20,804 nucleotides of DNA from a virus. The notes below the pieces were generated by a model that worked only from the letters and a program-made list of their open reading frames with translations, made no database searches and was not told the origin of the DNA. Location: positions 1 through 20,804 of the IMG/VR virus record IMGVR_UViG_3300031952_000187; one strand, written 5' to 3'. The first letter of the stretch is position 1. Each line of letters opens with the position of its first letter. The position numbers were made by a program, and so were the translations under genes. This document shows positions 4,599 to 20,685 of this stretch, one piece after another.

Positions 4599-4857
4599 AT
4601 CCTTGTTTTGTATCTGTTTTACTAATACCTCTATCCATAGAGTCTATGTTTTCTCTTTCCAATTCAATTCTACTTAGTATTTCAAAAGCATCAAATATTG
4701 CTAACTTTTTTGACATCGCTGCATTCTTAAGCTTGTCGGCAGATAAGTCATCGTCTGAGTTTATCTTTATGATGTCCTCTTCTGCAACTTTTATCAGTTG
4801 CTCAACAGCTTTATGCCCTGCTGCAATTATTTTTAATTTTACTTCTCTAATGTTCAT
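4576..4857 (-). CDS. Candidate small terminase subunit (TerS-like)
   Basis: A 93-aa, mostly helical, charged protein directly upstream of TerL and overlapping it by 23 bp. Small terminases bind the packaging site on phage DNA and load the motor; they usually sit just before terL and are 90-200 aa. The sequence has a helix-rich N-terminus (AAGHKAVEQLIKVAEEDI), a central NAAMSKKLAIFDAFEILSRIE segment like that seen in small proteins next to terL in related environmental phages, and a basic C-terminus (QGFAERRSK). No clear helix-turn-helix is visible, so the TerS call rests on position, size and recalled similarity. It overlaps the preceding dioxygenase gene by 11 bp, consistent with one leftward operon. 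Confidence 0.5.
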   Translation of the reverse strand: MNIREVKLKIIAAGHKAVEQLIKVAEEDIIKINSDDDLSADKLKNAAMSKKLAIFDAFEILSRIELERENIDSMDRGISKTDTKQGFAERRSK

Positions 4858-5323
4858 TTTTTTCTAAAAATATTACTTGTATTAATCTTGAACAGTCACC
4901 TTCTCCAAAGTTTTTAAATATAGTTCTTGAGTGTGGAGCATTTGAATTAAATGCAATCATTCTATTAAACTTTGAAAGCACTCTACATAACTCATTATTT
5001 TCTTTATCGTAAATTGTAGTTCCATCATCAAACGGATGATATTTACTAAGATACAAAATGCAAGTGATATCTCCCATCATATCATCTTTATGTATAAAAT
5101 TTGGCTCTTCTTGATTTAATGGCGACTTTCTTACAAAATTAAATTTCACTTTATATCTTGGATACAATAATTCAATATATCTAGCAAACTCATCATTATC
5201 TCTTGCTTGTATATTTTTAAATACATTGACACCATCTGTTACATCGTAAAATTCTCCTTTTAAAATATCCTCTACATATTGAATTGGATTATCCAACACA
5301 TTGTCAAATGATATTAAATTCAT
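4847..5323 (-). CDS. 2-oxoglutarate/Fe(II)-dependent dioxygenase (prolyl-hydroxylase-like)
   Basis: A 158-aa protein with the ligand set of the double-stranded beta-helix 2OG-Fe(II) oxygenases: H78-x-D80 in NFIHKDDM, a distal H131 in NAPHSRT, and R146 in CSRLIQV, which would bind the 2-oxoglutarate carboxylate. The segment DITCILYLS followed by DDGTTIYD is typical of this fold (compare ITAILYLN and GGET in prolyl 4-hydroxylase-like proteins), and the layout resembles the DUF6445-type branch found in phages and bacteria. These enzymes hydroxylate proteins or nucleic acids; the substrate here is unknown. It lies between the TerS candidate and the GroES-like gene, and close to the collagen-like fibre at 6111-7943. 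It overlaps the upstream gene by 4 bp. Fold confidence is good; substrate is not resolved. Confidence 0.78.
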   Translation of the reverse strand: MNLISFDNVLDNPIQYVEDILKGEFYDVTDGVNVFKNIQARDNDEFARYIELLYPRYKVKFNFVRKSPLNQEEPNFIHKDDMMGDITCILYLSKYHPFDDGTTIYDKENNELCRVLSKFNRMIAFNSNAPHSRTIFKNFGEGDCSRLIQVIFLEKNEH

Positions 5324-5883: not shown

Positions 5884-6111
5884 TTAAAAATTTATATTAT
5901 ATTCGATTGAAATTGGTATTGTTGAATTGAACTCTTTCCAAAGCACTATTTCACTTTTTTCATTTATTATATACACTAATATAGAACTTGACTCTTCATC
6001 ATGTCTTATTAGGTGAATCTCGTTAGAATCACCTAATACTTTTTGCCCTACAATATAATGCATTGCACCTCCTTTATAATCAGGACCAACTGATATTTTT
6101 CTTATATCCAT
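5884..6111 (-). CDS. Conserved small phage protein (IRKISVGPDYK type)
   Basis: A 75-aa protein of unknown function. It has a recognisable pattern: N-terminal DIRKISVGPDYKGGAMHYIVGQ, a middle HLIRHDEESSSILVYI strand pair, and the C-terminal block LWKEFNSTIPISIEYNINF. I recall very similar small proteins in marine and freshwater phages beside the GroES-like gene seen here, so it belongs to a conserved structural neighbourhood. It is probably a compact beta-rich domain with no membrane segment. Its ATG abuts the fibre stop at 6111 (1-bp overlap) and its stop lies immediately before the next start. No function is proposed. Confidence 0.72.
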   Translation of the reverse strand: MDIRKISVGPDYKGGAMHYIVGQKVLGDSNEIHLIRHDEESSSILVYIINEKSEIVLWKEFNSTIPISIEYNINF

Positions 6112-7943
6112 TATGGGTAAATTCTTACTTCTATAGTAGTATTAAACAATGTACTATTTATATAGTTATCACTAAAATCTTTTGATGAAACAACAATTGA
6201 ATTAGCTCCTGAAATAGCTGATCTAATAGTAATTGTATCATTTGATGCGCCTGCAGACCCTGCAAGTATAAATGTTTTTGAAGCATTTAAACTTGTAGAA
6301 AATGTAGCAACATATCTTCCTGTATTAAGGTAAGACCAAGTTACAGTTAGTCCTGTTGTATTTTCTAAAACCGTAGCAGTAGGAGCACTTGTTCCACTTT
6401 GTGTTAAAGTAGCTACGTATGAAGTATATTTACTTAATGCTAATGTTCCGCTTTCGTCAGGAAGTTGCCAATTTCTAGCAGCAGTTGGATTATCTGCTAA
6501 TAAATTAGATTGAAAAGAAGAATTATAAAATTGTAAAGCACCTGAGTTTGTAGCAGTAGTGTCAACTGCTAATGCAATACCTCTACCTGTAGTATTAATT
6601 GCTGTAATAAAAACTGATGAACTTTTTTGAACTGTTAAATTGTTTGAAAACAATGTTTGAGAAGAGTATAATCTTATTTGCGCTACATTGTTTCTTTTAA
6701 TAATAACATCAGCATTATCTGTTGTTCCTATAAAATTTGCTACGCCTAATCCTGTATTTCCTAATGTAGACCAACTACCACCACCTGTTATATCCGATAA
6801 CATTGCAAATGTTCCACTCTTATCAGGGAAAGTATAAAGACGGTCTGCAGTAAGTCCTCCATATCCTAATCTAGTCATAAAATTTTCTCCTGCAAATACA
6901 GCCATATTGTTACTTGTAGCTGTAGCATTGTATCCAAATAAATTAACATGACTATAAGAGTTTAATGTACCTGCATCTGCACCAAAAGCATTTACATGAA
7001 AACCCGAATTGCTTACTGCAGCACCACTACCTAAAGCATTTATATGATAACCTGAATTGCTAGTAGCTGCAGTTGAACCTACAGCGTTTACATAAAAACC
7101 TGTATTGCTTAATGCTGCTTGATATCCTAAAGCATTTACTTCATTACCTGTATTACCTTGTGCTGCACCTGCTCCAAATGCATTTACATTATTCCCTGTA
7201 TTACTTAATCCTGCAAGAGTACCTTGATAATTTCTACCATTAGTTAAAGCATGGTCAAAGTCTAAAACTTGTTGTAATGTTTGCGTTCCTGTTGGACCTG
7301 TTGCACCTGTTGGACCTGTTGCACCTGTAGGCCCTTGAGCACCTGTCGCACCTGCAGGACCTTGTGCTCCTTGTGAAGCTAACAACGCCCAATGTGTAGT
7401 ATCTAAATCAGGAGTAATAGTACCTGATGTTGCTAATATACAAAACCATGATGCACCTCCGTAAGCCACAGCGTCATCAATGACATATGACGTACCTGAC
7501 ACCCATGAACTTTGCCAATTTAAACCTGCAGGACCTACAGGACCCGGAACACCTTGTGGACCTATTGGACCTTGTATACCTTGAGGCCCTGTTACAACTG
7601 ATGATGACCATATTGGTATATTCCCTGTACCTTGACTTACAAGGACTTGACCTGATGTACCTGCACTTGAATTTATTAAAAACTGATTTGATATATTTAT
7701 AGTATTTGTTTGAACAATACCATAAAAAACGCCATTAGCAGCATATAAAACTTTATTATTTAAATTAACATCTGCTGTTGCTCCTGTATATGGAACAAAC
7801 CCACCATTTAATCCTATATAAGAAATTAACTGATTAACAGTAAAGTTTTTAGTAGCATTATTATTTGCAGTATCAGTACCAATCATCTTATCATTACCTG
7901 ATATTGTTGATGGTGCTAAAGGATATGATTCTATTTTTGCCAT
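6111..7943 (-). CDS. Collagen-like tail fibre with carbohydrate-binding-type insert
   Basis: A 610-aa tail fibre or receptor-binding protein. Modules in order: an N-terminal anchor (1-65) shared with the 937-aa fibre (KMIGTD, TKNFTV, LISYIG); seven Gly-X-Y triplets (119-139); a compact Trp/Cys-containing domain (141-190) with WVSGTSY, DDAVAY, GGASWFCI and HWALLAS, resembling chitin-binding type 5/12 modules; nine further Gly-X-Y triplets (192-218), mainly GPT and GAT; six 16-residue repeats of the form xxVNAxGxxAAxxNTG (251-346); the segment TFPDKSGTFAML; and a C-terminal beta domain beginning near WQLPDESGTLAL and YVATLTQSGTSAPTATVL, common at the ends of Bacteroidota phage fibres. The architecture suggests a trimer. 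The A-rich leader AAAAAAAACAATG supports the ATG at 7943. Confidence 0.88.
   Translation of the reverse strand: MAKIESYPLAPSTISGNDKMIGTDTANNNATKNFTVNQLISYIGLNGGFVPYTGATADVNLNNKVLYAANGVFYGIVQTNTINISNQFLINSSAGTSGQVLVSQGTGNIPIWSSSVVTGPQGIQGPIGPQGVPGPVGPAGLNWQSSWVSGTSYVIDDAVAYGGASWFCILATSGTITPDLDTTHWALLASQGAQGPAGATGAQGPTGATGPTGATGPTGTQTLQQVLDFDHALTNGRNYQGTLAGLSNTGNNVNAFGAGAAQGNTGNEVNALGYQAALSNTGFYVNAVGSTAATSNSGYHINALGSGAAVSNSGFHVNAFGADAGTLNSYSHVNLFGYNATATSNNMAVFAGENFMTRLGYGGLTADRLYTFPDKSGTFAMLSDITGGGSWSTLGNTGLGVANFIGTTDNADVIIKRNNVAQIRLYSSQTLFSNNLTVQKSSSVFITAINTTGRGIALAVDTTATNSGALQFYNSSFQSNLLADNPTAARNWQLPDESGTLALSKYTSYVATLTQSGTSAPTATVLENTTGLTVTWSYLNTGRYVATFSTSLNASKTFILAGSAGASNDTITIRSAISGANSIVVSSKDFSDNYINSTLFNTTIEVRIYP
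6906..7193 (-). repeat. Six 16-residue fibre-shaft repeats
   Basis: Six tandem copies of a 16-residue unit (residues 251-346) with the core VNAxGxxAA, for example EVNALGYQAALSNTG, FYVNAVGSTAATSNSG and YHINALGSGAAVSNSG. The spacing is exact. The pattern recalls the left-handed beta-roll repeats of YadA-like adhesin heads, so it probably forms a trimeric shaft segment. Confidence 0.75.
7290..7370 (-). repeat. Collagen-like Gly-X-Y block 2
   Basis: Nine consecutive Gly-X-Y triplets (residues 192-218), dominated by alternating GPT and GAT. On the DNA the unit is a 9- to 18-bp imperfect repeat, so the block could expand or contract by recombination. Threonine in Y is typical of bacterial and phage collagen-like proteins. 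Confidence 0.85.
7527..7589 (-). repeat. Collagen-like Gly-X-Y block 1
   Basis: Seven consecutive Gly-X-Y triplets (residues 119-139 of the 610-aa fibre). Proline is mostly in X (GPQ, GPI, GPV, GPA); only GVP places it in Y. Such blocks form a triple helix connecting fibre domains. Confidence 0.85.
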
Positions 7944-15808: not shown

Positions 15809-16276
15809 ATGAAAATAAGAAACTACGACTACATGAAATATTGGAGAGTTATCCGATATTACTACAAGAAAAAAACAGGACTAACTGAACCCGATTTGGA
15901 TTTGATGTTCTTCCTGTACTCTGAAGATGAGTTTAGCAAAATGAAATTTGAAGAGTTTGATACCATTCTCGGATGGAAGGTTACAAGATTTCAAGACCTT
16001 TTGAGAGACGGATGGATATCAGTTTTTAGAGAAAGAAAACGCAAAGAAAAGACACTATACCAACTTTCGCCAAGAGGGAAAAGATTAATAACAACAATCT
16101 ATAAAAAAATGAATGGGGAAGAAATACCTATTAGCCTAAACAATGACAACATATTCCACAAAGAAAAGCTTGGCTTTAATGACAAGAGATATATCATCAT
16201 GATTAAGAACATGAATGAGCAAGTTAGAAAGAAGTGGCACGAAGCTCACAGTACAACCACAACATCGCGCTCCTGA
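15809..16276 (+). CDS. Winged-helix DNA-binding regulator
   Basis: A 155-aa protein on the opposite strand to its neighbours. The N-terminal half is helical (YMKYWRVIRYYYKKKTGLTEPDL in parts, then DLMFFLYSEDEFSKMKFEEF), followed by ILGWKVTRFQDLLRDGWISV (54-73), a typical recognition-helix region, and RKRKEKTLYQLSPRGKRLIT (76-95), the wing plus final helix of MarR/PadR-like domains (LS.RGKRLI). It probably binds DNA and regulates phage transcription. It is divergent from the leftward operon that starts at 15768, with only 40 bp between starts, so it is well placed to control that promoter. Its end overlaps groES by 31 bp in convergent orientation. The operator is not identified. Confidence 0.78.
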   Translation: MKIRNYDYMKYWRVIRYYYKKKTGLTEPDLDLMFFLYSEDEFSKMKFEEFDTILGWKVTRFQDLLRDGWISVFRERKRKEKTLYQLSPRGKRLITTIYKKMNGEEIPISLNNDNIFHKEKLGFNDKRYIIMIKNMNEQVRKKWHEAHSTTTTSRS

Positions 16277-16503
16277 ATAATGGTAAACTGAGTATCGTTG
16301 ATAATCATCGTGAACCCATGACCTTTATCATAGTAGATGGTATCACCTTCATTGATAACAGTCACATCTGTTCCGGGCTTCTCAACGATACCCTTTTTAT
16401 ACCTTAGCTGATTGGCATCATCTCCTGATAAGTATAACCCTGATTCAGTTTTGATGTCCTCTTCAATTGTTTTAACAACTATATATTTCCCGATGGGTGT
16501 CAT
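16246..16503 (-). CDS. groES: Co-chaperonin GroES
   Basis: An 85-aa GroES (cellular forms are about 95 aa). The typical order is present: IGKYIVVKTIEED (4-16), a mobile loop IKTESGLYLSG (17-27) carrying the GLYL version of the GroEL-binding GIVL tripeptide region, KKGIVEKPG (36-44), INEGDTIYYDK (50-60) and a final FTIIQERDVVVVL (73-85) matching the ..LI..ESDILA.V ending. It caps GroEL and helps release folded proteins. It is the fourth gene of the groEL operon, two genes downstream of groEL, and its 3' end overlaps the winged-helix gene on the other strand. Confidence 0.9.
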   Translation of the reverse strand: MTPIGKYIVVKTIEEDIKTESGLYLSGDDANQLRYKKGIVEKPGTDVTVINEGDTIYYDKGHGFTMIINDTQFTIIQERDVVVVL

Positions 16504-16507
16504 GTGT

Positions 16508-16744
16508 TTAGTATTTAAGTGTTAGAACTTTTACCACATTCATCTGCGCATTTAATATCTCACCTATTGCGTGGTCGTATAGTGTCGATGAAAGATACGT
16601 AGGTTCTTTAGTCATAGAGTCTTCTTTTAACAAGTCAGCCAACTCTGCACAAAGTTGTTTTGCTTTTGCAACCTTATCATCTGCTGATGGATTGAATGTA
16701 ATTCCTACTAATTTTTCTCCAAATGTCATTTCTCTTGAATCCAT
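16508..16744 (-). CDS. Acb2/Tad1-type cyclic-nucleotide sponge candidate (anti-CBASS/anti-Thoeris)
   Basis: A 78-aa two-helix protein. MTFGEKLVGITFNPSADDKV (6-25), AKAKQLCAELADLLKE (26-41), then a loop (EDSMTKEPTYLSST) and LYDHAIGEILNAQMNVVKVL (56-75) match the Acb2/Tad1 hairpin family: an N-terminal FGEK..G..FNPS..D.V signature, a helix rich in K/A/L, and a final helix of the A....E...AQM..VKA.T type. Acb2 proteins bind the cyclic di- and trinucleotides made by CBASS, and Tad1 proteins bind the Thoeris signal, so both block host suicide. The assignment is from recalled sequence pattern. It lies between groES (4 bp) and the 85-aa gene (11 bp). The start follows AAAATCAAATAATATG; an internal ATG (M6) would give the shorter MTFGEK form. 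Confidence 0.75.
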   Translation of the reverse strand: MDSREMTFGEKLVGITFNPSADDKVAKAKQLCAELADLLKEDSMTKEPTYLSSTLYDHAIGEILNAQMNVVKVLTLKY

Positions 16745-16755
16745 ATTATTTGATT

Positions 16756-17013
16756 TTAAAATTCAGTATTTGCCCATATTACTAACTGCTCATCGTCATC
16801 GTCTTGACTACGCATCTTCTCCTCAAAGTACTCAACTGCGTCCTCTTCGTCCATACCGTCAGTATATACCAAGATGTCCAAGCACTTTGTAACTGAGTAG
16901 ATTAGTCGTGATGTGTCTAGGTCCAACCCTATAACAGCCTCATCAAATCCCTTGACCGTATCGAACACAACGTCAGGGTACGCTTTTTGTATTTTACTTA
17001 GTGTTTGACTCAT
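16756..17013 (-). CDS. Small acidic phage protein (GFDEAVIGLD type)
   Basis: An 85-aa acidic protein common in tailed phages of many hosts. The pattern is an N-terminal helix, then GFDEAVIGLDLDTSRLIYSV (22-41), TKCLDILVYTDGMDEEDAVE (42-61) and YFEEKM (62-67), followed by an acidic DDDDEQLVIWANTEF end. I recall many phage proteins of the form FDEAxxGxxxxxRLxYs...L...MxxEEAxEyF, all without a known function. The start at 17013 overlaps the groEL 3' end by 20 bp, so it is probably coupled to groEL translation. There is no TM segment. Confidence 0.75.
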   Translation of the reverse strand: MSQTLSKIQKAYPDVVFDTVKGFDEAVIGLDLDTSRLIYSVTKCLDILVYTDGMDEEDAVEYFEEKMRSQDDDDEQLVIWANTEF

Positions 17014-18613
17014 AACTTCTTGCCATTGTGATTATTGCATTAGTGCTAAGAATTGTAACTGCCACACTCACCGCATTTTGTAAAGCTGACCTTGTAACCT
17101 TCAACGGGTCAATAACACCCATCTCAATCAAGTCACCCATCTCTCCACTCTTCAAATTGTATCCATGACCCTCCTGCTCATTGCCATCGTAAATGTCTTT
17201 AACATGTAGCCCTGCGTTCATAAGTATTTGATTTAGAGGCGATAAGAGTGCGCTATATAAAATTAAACTTGCAACAATCTCATCGTTAGTATAGTCAGAC
17301 TCGTCAATATGCGCAATAGCTATCTCAGCCAATGCCTTGCCTGCACCTGCAAGTATGCCCTCTTCAAGTGCTGAGCGAACTGCACACACCGCATCATCAA
17401 CTCTATCGTATAGCTCCTTCTGCTCTAGGTCAGTTTGACCACCAACGAAGATTACACCAATACCACCTGTTAGTGAAGCGATGCGCTCCAAGATAAAGTC
17501 TTTGTCTGCTTTGCGCTTTGCCTGAGCATGTGCGTCCCAAAGCTGTGCAACCCTTTGGTCAATCTCTTCTTTCTTTGATTTAAGTGCTGACTTGATGATA
17601 ACAGTCTTGTCTTTGCTAACAATTATTTTGGCAGCGTGACCAAGATTGCCAAAGTTAATATGGCTTAGGTCATCACCTGTCTTCTCGCTAAAATATGTAG
17701 CACCAACACTTGTTGCAATGTCTTGCATAATCTCGTGTTGCTTGTATCCAAAATTTGGAGGAGCAACCGCACAAACCTTCAAGTTCCCCTTCATCACATT
17801 CGCAGCCAACGTGTTCACCACGTTCCCATTGCACGGAGAGATTATCAAAAGCTTCTTACCCTCGCTGATAATTGGCTTAAGCACGTTCTCAATTTGCAAT
17901 ATGTTAGCTATCTCAATGTCAGCCACAAGTATCATCACGTCCTCAAGCACGCATTCGTCCTTTTTTTGGTCGTTAATGAAAAGTGGACTAAGATATCCTC
18001 TATCAAATTTTAAGCCCATAGTGGTCTCCGCATACGTCTCAGAGGACTGACTCTTCTCCACCGTCACTATACCATTCTTGCCAACGTCTTTGTACACCTC
18101 TGAAATTATTGAACCAATGCTCTTGTCATTGTTCGCAGATATAGTCGCCACATCCAACAACATCTTTTTCGTAACCTTTTTACTCTTCTCCTTCAACTTC
18201 TCCACCACCTCGTTTGACATCTCCACCAAATGTCTCAACACCGCAGTCCGATTATGGTGCTCCTTTATCAGCTCATTGCCACCCAACACCAATGCCTCAG
18301 TCAAGACAATCGCGGTAGTTGTACCATCACCGGCACTCGTTGCCGTCCTGTCCGCTGCCTCCTTCATCATCCGAACCGCAAGGTTCTCGACAGGATCAAG
18401 TAAGTCAACAGACTTTGCCACAGTTACACCATCCTTTGTAACCGTTATGCCATGCGTATGATTTGTGGATTCTATCAAAACAGTATTGCCGTTAGGCCCC
18501 AAAGTGCTCTTAACAGCCCTTGACATTTTCATAACACCATTGATAAGCTTTTGTCTACCCTGCTCACCAAATTGCAAGTCCTTTGGACTGTACCCTGAAT
18601 TGTCTAACATCAT
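16994..18613 (-). CDS. groEL: Chaperonin GroEL
   Basis: A 539-aa chaperonin of near-normal length (usual 530-550). Key residues are kept: VTKDGVTVAKS (58-68; D61 is E. coli D52), AGDGTTTAIVL (94-104; D96 is D87) and RVDDAVCAVRSALEEGI (404-420; D407 is D398). The apical segment is KFDRGYLSPLFINDQKKDEC in parts (202-221), and the typical IDPLKVTRSALQNA lies at 501-514. The usual Gly-Gly-Met C-terminal tail is absent; the protein ends ARSYESNTK. It is the first gene after a strong promoter and is followed by an overlapping acidic phage gene. Complete phage-encoded GroEL is uncommon. An adjacent ATG at 18610 could also initiate. Acquisition from a host is likely but was not tested. Confidence 0.95.
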   Translation of the reverse strand: MMLDNSGYSPKDLQFGEQGRQKLINGVMKMSRAVKSTLGPNGNTVLIESTNHTHGITVTKDGVTVAKSVDLLDPVENLAVRMMKEAADRTATSAGDGTTTAIVLTEALVLGGNELIKEHHNRTAVLRHLVEMSNEVVEKLKEKSKKVTKKMLLDVATISANNDKSIGSIISEVYKDVGKNGIVTVEKSQSSETYAETTMGLKFDRGYLSPLFINDQKKDECVLEDVMILVADIEIANILQIENVLKPIISEGKKLLIISPCNGNVVNTLAANVMKGNLKVCAVAPPNFGYKQHEIMQDIATSVGATYFSEKTGDDLSHINFGNLGHAAKIIVSKDKTVIIKSALKSKKEEIDQRVAQLWDAHAQAKRKADKDFILERIASLTGGIGVIFVGGQTDLEQKELYDRVDDAVCAVRSALEEGILAGAGKALAEIAIAHIDESDYTNDEIVASLILYSALLSPLNQILMNAGLHVKDIYDGNEQEGHGYNLKSGEMGDLIEMGVIDPLKVTRSALQNAVSVAVTILSTNAIITMARSYESNTK

Positions 18614-18625
18614 ATTGAATTAAAT

Positions 18626-18739
18626 TTATGAAACCAAAGATACCAACTTCCAACAAACAACCAAAAAAAATATATATGCTAGTAGCGAAGCTATTAGCAT
18701 CAAAACCATAAACCATTCCTCATTGCTTTTGTTTCCCAT
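18626..18739 (-). CDS. Possible 37-aa membrane peptide overlapping the groEL promoter
   Basis: A short frame: MGNKSNEEWF followed by a strongly hydrophobic run (MVLMLIASLLAYIFFLVVCW) and KLVSLVS. The run is long enough for one TM helix after a charged N-terminus, and it ends 12 bp before groEL. Against it: the groEL promoter lies inside its 3' half and no family is recognised. It may be chance. Confidence 0.3.
   Translation of the reverse strand: MGNKSNEEWFMVLMLIASLLAYIFFLVVCWKLVSLVS
18635..18665 (-). promoter_or_regulatory. Bacteroidota-type promoter for groEL operon
   Basis: On the minus strand TTTG (18665-18662), a 19-bp spacer and TATCTTTG (18642-18635) match the Bacteroidota consensus TTTG-N19/21-TAnnTTTG in both boxes and spacing. 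The ATG of groEL follows 21 bp beyond the minus-7 box, giving a short leader. Confidence 0.75.
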
Positions 18740-20040: not shown

Positions 20041-20685
20041 ATGTCAAACGTAAATGAAATTAACGCGCAAAATTTAACACAATTAAAAACAGATTTGAGC
20101 TTTCAAACAGATTCAAAGTATTTAATCATTAAAAGTTTAACGGCTGAAAATGTCGAACTTTTGCAAAAAAGTTGGGAAAAGACAAAAGAGCAAAACTGCG
20201 AAGTATTACAAAGTTATAACTACTTCAAAAGTGAAAAGTACAAAGACATTGCCAAAAAGTTTAACGTTACACTAACTACGGAAACCTACGCAAAATTATT
20301 CGGTATGTCTAGAAGTAATTTTTTAGAATGCGTACAATCTGCAAAAGTGGACGCAAACAATATCGTAAAGTATGAAAAACATTGCATAGCTGAAAATATC
20401 GGGCTAAGCCGTAAAGGTTTATTGAAATTTGTTGCCGATTTAAATAAGCCGTCCACTCAAGTGGACACGTCAAAAGACAATGATACGGATACGGATACGG
20501 ATACGGATACGGATACGGATACGGATACGGATACGGCTATAATAACTAAAAAATTGTCGATTAAGATTGATAAAAACGACAAAATAAGTGTGGACGGGAA
20601 AGCTACCTTAAAGCAATTAACTTTAATAATGGAAGAGGTTAAGCGATTAATGGAAGAAGCAAAAGTAAAAGAAGAAAAGAAATAA
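20041..20685 (+). CDS. Unknown protein with Asp-Thr repeat linker, possible DNA-binding
   Basis: A 214-aa protein that I cannot assign. The N-terminal 135 residues are helical, basic and polar; YKDIAKKFNVTLTTETYAKL (62-81), FGMSRSNFLECVQSA and IGLSRKGLLKFVADL (each of the pattern xGxSRxxLLxxV) look like repeated helix-turn-helix-type helices. A linker contains nine Asp-Thr pairs, encoded by the GATACG repeat. The C-terminal 50 residues (LSIKIDKNDKISVDGKA, then LTLIMEEVKRLMEEAKVK) are charged and partly coiled. It has its own promoter and a strong terminator, and is the only rightward gene at this end. A replication or regulatory role is possible, given the repeat-rich region upstream, but is not proven. 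Confidence 0.5.
   Translation: MSNVNEINAQNLTQLKTDLSFQTDSKYLIIKSLTAENVELLQKSWEKTKEQNCEVLQSYNYFKSEKYKDIAKKFNVTLTTETYAKLFGMSRSNFLECVQSAKVDANNIVKYEKHCIAENIGLSRKGLLKFVADLNKPSTQVDTSKDNDTDTDTDTDTDTDTDTDTAIITKKLSIKIDKNDKISVDGKATLKQLTLIMEEVKRLMEEAKVKEEKK
20451..20466. promoter_or_regulatory. Intragenic copy of the dyad
   Basis: GTCCACT-CA-AGTGGAC has perfect 7-bp arms and a 2-nt centre. It lies in the coding region about 470 bp from the ATG-proximal copy, just before the GATACG repeat. Confidence 0.5.
20482..20535 (+). repeat. Nine tandem copies of GATACG
   Basis: A perfect 54-bp run of the hexamer GATACG (9 copies) in frame, encoding Asp-Thr pairs. Copy-number change would alter linker length without shifting the frame. 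Confidence 0.9.

Follow-up and report, generated by a model that had tools for sequence, protein, structure and literature searches.

Inside the chaperonin operon of a phage, we find a small gene for a putative nucleotide sponge. The operon lies on a 20,804-nucleotide stretch of viral DNA (IMG/VR record IMGVR_UViG_3300031952_000187, positions 1 to 20,804; hereafter the window, meaning the whole stretch analysed). Its genes run on the minus strand in the order groEL, a gene for an 85-amino-acid acidic protein, a gene for a 78-amino-acid protein (positions 16508–16744) and groES. Sequence comparisons lead us to place the 78-amino-acid protein in the Acb2 branch of the Acb2/Tad1-hairpin family as a divergent member, an assignment that appears right at the family level; we refer to its gene and the related genes as acb. 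In the phage lineage of the window, acb is best read as interchangeable cargo drawn from different Acb2 subfamilies. As far as we found, acb in a chaperonin or GroES setting is a recurrent and apparently undescribed genomic context; our search for Acb2 together with GroES returned no paper from the literature library that it covered.

Kinship of the 78-amino-acid protein with Acb2

A BLAST search of 50,697 phage records matched the window protein over its full length to a protein of phage DSL-LC05 (39% identity, E value 1e-7) and also to proteins of EcP1, PS3 and Pmp11. The DSL-LC05 protein itself passes the Pfam model PF24729 (40.4 bits), as do proteins of EcP1, Pmp11, FCL-2, Elemovirus and the metagenomic loci L075, L079 and L072, together with T4 Vs.4, a PF24729 member. 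Among these, L079 (30.5 bits) is a relative with its own groEL-acb-groES cluster followed by a helix-turn-helix (HTH) gene. PS3 falls slightly below the cut-off, and several close relatives of the window protein are also below it. When a model was built from only six Pfam-passing phage proteins, all outside the groEL lineage, it found the window protein at an E value of 1.7e-14, whereas 20,000 shuffled copies gave nothing better than 0.45; searched against 9,180 open reading frames (ORFs), it matched acb ORFs and nothing else. Profile-profile comparison (hhalign) of the window subfamily with these intermediates added against the characterised Acb2 proteins of T4 and p26 gave 95.3% (E 2.2e-8), compared to 0.7% for an unrelated control. 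The intermediates match PHROG 717, the family that Jenson et al. relied on for homologues of Vs.4 (PMC10097602).

The predicted fold agrees. In an AlphaFold2 (AF2) model with a predicted local distance difference test score (pLDDT) of 94.2, the 78-amino-acid protein forms helices at residues 8–13, 23–43 and 50–75, with no N-terminal beta sheet. This is the layout of the Acb2 protomer, a short N-terminal helix and two long antiparallel helices (PMC12043709). The best fold matches in BFVD were proteins named Acb2/Tad1 hairpin (probability 1.00, E 6.5e-4, template-modelling scores of 0.77 and 0.92).

Other results weigh against a nucleotide-binding relative of Acb2. The first-pass annotation, which had given the sponge label on the strength of FGEK...FNPS...V and AQM..VK patterns, offered a Pfam hidden Markov model search as one check, and as proposed this test fails, since PF24729 gives the window protein 12.5 bits (E 0.17) against a cut-off of 27. 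Profile-profile comparison of the window subfamily alone with characterised Acb2 reached only 3.6%. A fold search of the PDB with the AF2 model, run without a positive control, gave no match at E < 1, including to the solved Acb2 structures (7uq2, 8h2x and others). Finally, the residues that contact cyclic GMP-AMP (cGAMP) in T4 Vs.4 (Y8, H11, K23, R79 and F82; PMC10097602) correspond in the window protein to F17, S20, K29, K72 and T75, as judged by alignment through L075 and by family alignments, and K29 lies 12 residues after the aromatic rather than 15 as in Vs.4, three residues closer. With the pocket residues only partly kept, the protein may have a different specificity or may no longer bind.

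Alignment of 45 relatives revealed that most of these positions are conserved among them: F17 in 43, S20 in 43, K29 in 44 (at the offset position), K72 in all 45 and T75 in 39, with the residue following T75 being phenylalanine or tyrosine in 18. The hexamer contacts of Vs.4 (A66, A73 and A77; PMC10097602) correspond to A59, A66 and V70, which are alanine in 37 of 45, alanine in 45 of 45 and valine in 37 of 45. Compared with Vs.4, the aromatic, a lysine in helix 1, a basic residue in helix 2 and two of the three small residues at the interface are kept, while H11, F82 and A77 are not. From these residues, a putative sponge with its own specificity is likeliest, although the 78-amino-acid protein may have lost nucleotide binding. 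The family named in the first-pass annotation holds up, reached via intermediates; a direct Pfam match above the cut-off was not obtained. With the window protein and its relatives included, the Acb2 family takes in many Bacteroidota phage genes that a standard Pfam search overlooks.

Sequence searches of the PDB with the window protein and with the family profile retrieved no Acb2. The top profile matches were designed helical proteins, which we rejected as composition matches.

Optional cargo in a chaperonin operon

The operon has the order and the exact spacings described in the first-pass annotation: groEL (16994–18613) and the gene for the 85-amino-acid protein (16756–17013) overlap by 20 bp, followed by gaps of 11 bp and 4 bp on either side of acb, and groES lies at 16246–16503. 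The 539-amino-acid groEL product belongs to Cpn60 (PF00118, 188.6 bits, cut-off 34.3; phrog_5725, E 7.9e-135) and, aligned with PDB GroEL sequences, keeps the ATPase motifs, with TLGP, TKDGVTVA, GDGTTT and RVDDAV all present; it lacks the Gly-Gly-Met tail. The groES product (85 amino acids) matches Cpn10 as a whole protein (PF00166, 44.7 bits, cut-off 21.1) and the PDB Cpn10 entries 1wnr and 4v4o, and contains a mobile-loop-like ESGLYL. The 85-amino-acid protein is indeed acidic (21 D/E versus 7 K/R) and belongs to phrog_13182 (E 2.7e-11), a family widespread in phages, with function unassigned and the pattern GFDxAIIGxD..LVYSVxKCIDIL. Its relatives sit between groEL and groES in approximately 38 loci as optional cargo.

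A groEL search of viral contigs gave an unbiased set of 80 loci, in whose choice acb played no part. At each of them groES comes after groEL, and a convergent HTH gene comes after groES. The first-pass remark that complete groEL/groES pairs are uncommon is fair for phages at large, where a GroEL match covering at least 80% of the query occurred in 230 of the 50,697 records, but every locus examined in the window's lineage has the pair. In the window, the convergent gene (15809–16276, plus strand) encodes a 155-amino-acid putative regulator with weak HTH likeness (phrog_12817, E 8.2e-4), overlaps groES by 31 bp at its 3′ end and is a constant marker of the chaperonin module. Given that it accompanies groES at all groEL loci and also in Elemovirus, a role in regulating the chaperonin operon is possible.

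In contrast to this constant frame, acb is optional. It lies between groEL and groES in five of the 80 loci (L089, a near copy of the window, L094, L127, L134 and L140) and immediately upstream of groEL in one (L100). An acb-based search, whose loci are partly on the same contigs, placed acb between the two genes in L015, L016, L021, L032 and L079 and upstream of groEL in L003, L017, L018, L019, L022, L045 and L051. The gene order of the window therefore recurs in related phages, as had been asked (L015, L021, L016, L032, L079 and L134), while the idea of acb as a fixed part of the operon does not survive. On the GroEL tree, the state with acb between the genes needs at least seven changes. 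On the acb tree, the groEL-linked genes do not form one clade, with at least four changes forced (DSL-LC05 was coded as "none" instead of GroES-linked, which leaves the groEL-linked result unaffected), and the acb of L079 belongs to a quite different subfamily. These results rule out a fixed functional pairing of acb with groEL, since acb is missing from most related groEL loci and was repeatedly gained and lost, and they rule out inheritance of a single acb copy within the groEL lineage. Because acb is optional and repeatedly gained or lost, the groEL-groES site is a repeated landing place.

Other genes land there too. The groEL-groES gap ranges from -44 to 2,095 bp and, besides the 85-amino-acid family, holds HNH, MazG-like pyrophosphatase, class II tRNA-synthetase-like, RyR-domain and crAss001_48-type genes. 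This mixture favours a tentative alternative, compatible with sponge function, in which the site is merely permissive and adjacency to groES is uninformative about what acb does. Against such neutrality, acb genes from several subfamilies entered the site independently, only one of 18 records of 53–65 kb that lack acb in the chaperonin cluster has acb elsewhere, and GroES neighbours of acb recur in an unrelated lineage (see below).

Two kinds of gap cargo stood out. One set, present in L137, L153, L156, L159–L161 and L164, combines a MazG-like pyrophosphatase with a class II tRNA-synthetase-like protein (phrog_29758) and a protein that is putatively exported. A RyR-domain gene lies in the gap at L051:1969–2424 (PF02026, 45.6 bits) and also occurs in L032, L094, L096 and L100; several of these loci carry acb as well.

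The strong promoter predicted upstream of groEL is real, in Bacteroidota form. It reads TTG-N19-TATCTTTG on the minus strand, with the -33 element TTG at 18662–18664, 19 nt upstream of the -7 element TATCTTTG at 18635–18642, which ends 21 nt before the groEL start. These elements follow the Bacteroidota promoter consensus. Of 79 distinct related loci, 70 have TAnnTTTG upstream of groEL and 34 have the stricter TTG-N18-22-TAnnTTTG, where mononucleotide shuffles gave a mean of 9.1 for the first and 0.8 for the second. Of the nine regions lacking TAnnTTTG, six (L003, L018, L022, L045, L051 and L100) have acb immediately before groEL, an arrangement that would fit co-transcription of the two genes there. 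A scan for E. coli-type sigma-70 promoters gave matches at chance level only. The promoter type, together with a 65% relative in a Bacteroidia metagenome-assembled genome (MAG), points to a Bacteroidota host.

Linkage of acb to GroES and possible function

At acb loci that lack groEL, members of one family of 90–130 amino acids are the most frequent neighbours; we identified this family as divergent GroES. The L020 member passes PF00166 (24.5 bits), a model of the family matched only true GroES ORFs at E < 1, and an AF2 model matched GroES structures and T4 gp31, most of its top matches having a probability of 1.00. We found no isolated phages with this divergent family. A second phage group (L053–L081 and L004–L050; contigs of approximately 100–125 kb) has it as the immediate neighbour of acb, and Pfam leaves most of its members unnamed.

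Counting both kinds of GroES, a same-strand homolog lies within 2.3 kb of acb in 52 of 80 acb loci, within 1.2 kb in 45 and within 50 bp in 23. Grouping the acb genes at 80% identity gave 37 clusters, 19 of which were GroES-linked, always on the same strand and often with gaps of 2–6 bp; GroES is downstream of acb in some loci, whereas in others it is upstream. At most one to two flanking families are common to the groEL lineage and the second group, which rules out one shared syntenic block behind both and indicates direct acb-GroES linkage in at least two lineages. DSL-LC05, with groES 0.8 kb away, is a third. The linkage was not seen in the stretches read of the T4, PaMx41, FCL-2, EcP1, PS3 and Pmp11 acb lineages. 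A binomial estimate of approximately 0.01 for repeated linkage is rough, as it uses 16 hand-set lineages at 3% each and retrieval with the window protein biases it. Thus, repeated linkage beyond chance is suggested, not decisively.

Two further observations concern acb relatives. In PaMx41 (L206, 2483–2755), the Acb2 match spans 85 codons while the annotated ORF24 has approximately 37, so the gene looks interrupted or misannotated. Relatives in L217 and L218 lie in MAG contigs labelled Bdellovibrionales and Anaplasmataceae, which may be misbinned phage contigs.

We consider it probable that a Bacteroidota phage here carries a self-contained chaperonin operon with interchangeable small cargo; its chaperonin would most likely serve phage proteins, and the acb member of the cargo would be a nucleotide sponge. 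Under this model, a single strong promoter would drive groEL, the gene for the 85-amino-acid protein, acb and groES as one transcript, and both the interior and the upstream edge of the operon would accept small cargo genes. The 78-amino-acid helical hairpins would assemble into an oligomer, as T4 Acb2 (Vs.4) does, and sequester a cyclic oligonucleotide or related nucleotide signal of a host defence resembling the cyclic-oligonucleotide-based antiphage signalling system (CBASS), such that a suicide effector would stay untriggered during the folding of phage proteins. Placement in the chaperonin operon would supply strong co-expression, and physical contact between sponge and chaperonin would not be required. 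Acb2 blocks CBASS by sequestration (PMC10097602, PMC12043709) but also triggers Panoptes, which senses when its decoy nucleotide is lost (PMC12657218); these opposing pressures would fit the patchy presence of acb.

The first-pass annotation had tied takeover of host folding to counter-defence. The repeated acb-GroES linkage elsewhere gives this idea some support, with the functional link itself hypothetical. A stronger version, which we think unlikely, is that phages repeatedly assemble a co-expressed chaperonin-sponge module, either because folding and capsid assembly coincide with the triggering of nucleotide defences or because the sponge works on the chaperonin or by way of it. In that case, the phage co-chaperonin neighbourhood could serve as a marker for new counter-defence genes.

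Quite improbable, in our view, is that the protein is a hairpin-family member that binds no cyclic nucleotide and acts on the chaperonin, for example as a GroEL/GroES adaptor or stabiliser, and recurs beside groES for that reason. The same-strand linkage in 19 of 37 clusters, with its short gaps, and the partial loss of known ligand residues would fit such a role. However, the nearest Pfam-passing relatives (EcP1, Pmp11 and FCL-2) and PS3 lie in different settings without adjoining groEL or groES, like mobile counter-defence genes; the conserved aromatic, Ala-x-Met and lysine fall on pocket or interface positions of T4 Vs.4; and acb is missing from most groEL-groES loci. That a helical hairpin with FNPS and AQM..VK patterns converged by chance, with no Acb2 kinship, is hardly credible despite the direct Pfam E value and the empty PDB fold and sequence searches, given the full-length BLAST match, the fold matches to named family members and above all the independent six-protein model, which strongly disfavours it.

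Phage chaperonin operons are a repeated landing site for Acb2-family genes. The recurrent acb-GroES neighbourhood offers a handle on the search for counter-defence genes and on whether takeover of folding and suppression of defence are co-expressed, a question approachable at the bench because cultured Flavobacterium Elemovirus phages carry both modules.

Other window features and comparison with known systems

Elsewhere in the window, positions 6111–7943 encode a tail-fibre-like protein with collagen-like Gly-x-y repeats (GPQGIQGPIGPQGVPGP...), and 20041–20685 a protein with a long Asp-Thr (DTDTDT) repeat. A gene at 4847–5323, adjoining the terminase region, has a weak match to 2-oxoglutarate-Fe(II) (2OG-Fe(II)) oxygenases (23.0 bits, cut-off 27).

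Among known proteins, the window protein most invites comparison with Acb2 of T4 (Vs.4) and Pseudomonas phage p26 (PF24729). It resembles them in size, in its short N-terminal helix and two long antiparallel helices, in the aromatic before the long helix, in the conserved lysine of the first long helix and in the Ala/Ala-x-Met/basic pattern of the last helix; like them, it is phage-borne and mobile. It differs in having FNPS where Acb2 has GYKPH or GYRDL and in the replacement of Arg79 by Lys, Phe82 by Thr and Ala77 by Val, and unlike them it scores below the Pfam cut-off and is encoded inside a chaperonin operon. With Tad1, a sponge for glycocyclic ADP-ribose (gcADPR), it has the hairpin domain in common by family definition, but the antiparallel beta sheet at the N terminus of Tad1 (PMC12043709) is absent from the AF2 model of the window protein.

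Among known phages, DSL-LC05 (Gammaproteobacteria) has the full-length acb-family gene with 39% identity and a same-strand groES 0.8 kb downstream; unlike in the window, no groEL was found and the genes lie between terminase and portal. Podoviridae sp. ctfjg026 (MW202828) encodes the closest GroEL in the phage collection (62%) and has the same order of groEL, groES and convergent HTH gene, but nothing is inserted between groEL and groES. The Flavobacterium phages of Elemovirus (elemoA–F) have groEL-groES, the same convergent HTH gene (E 5.7e-25) and a PF24729 gene in the genome; there, however, groEL-groES is uninterrupted and acb lies approximately 11 kb away.

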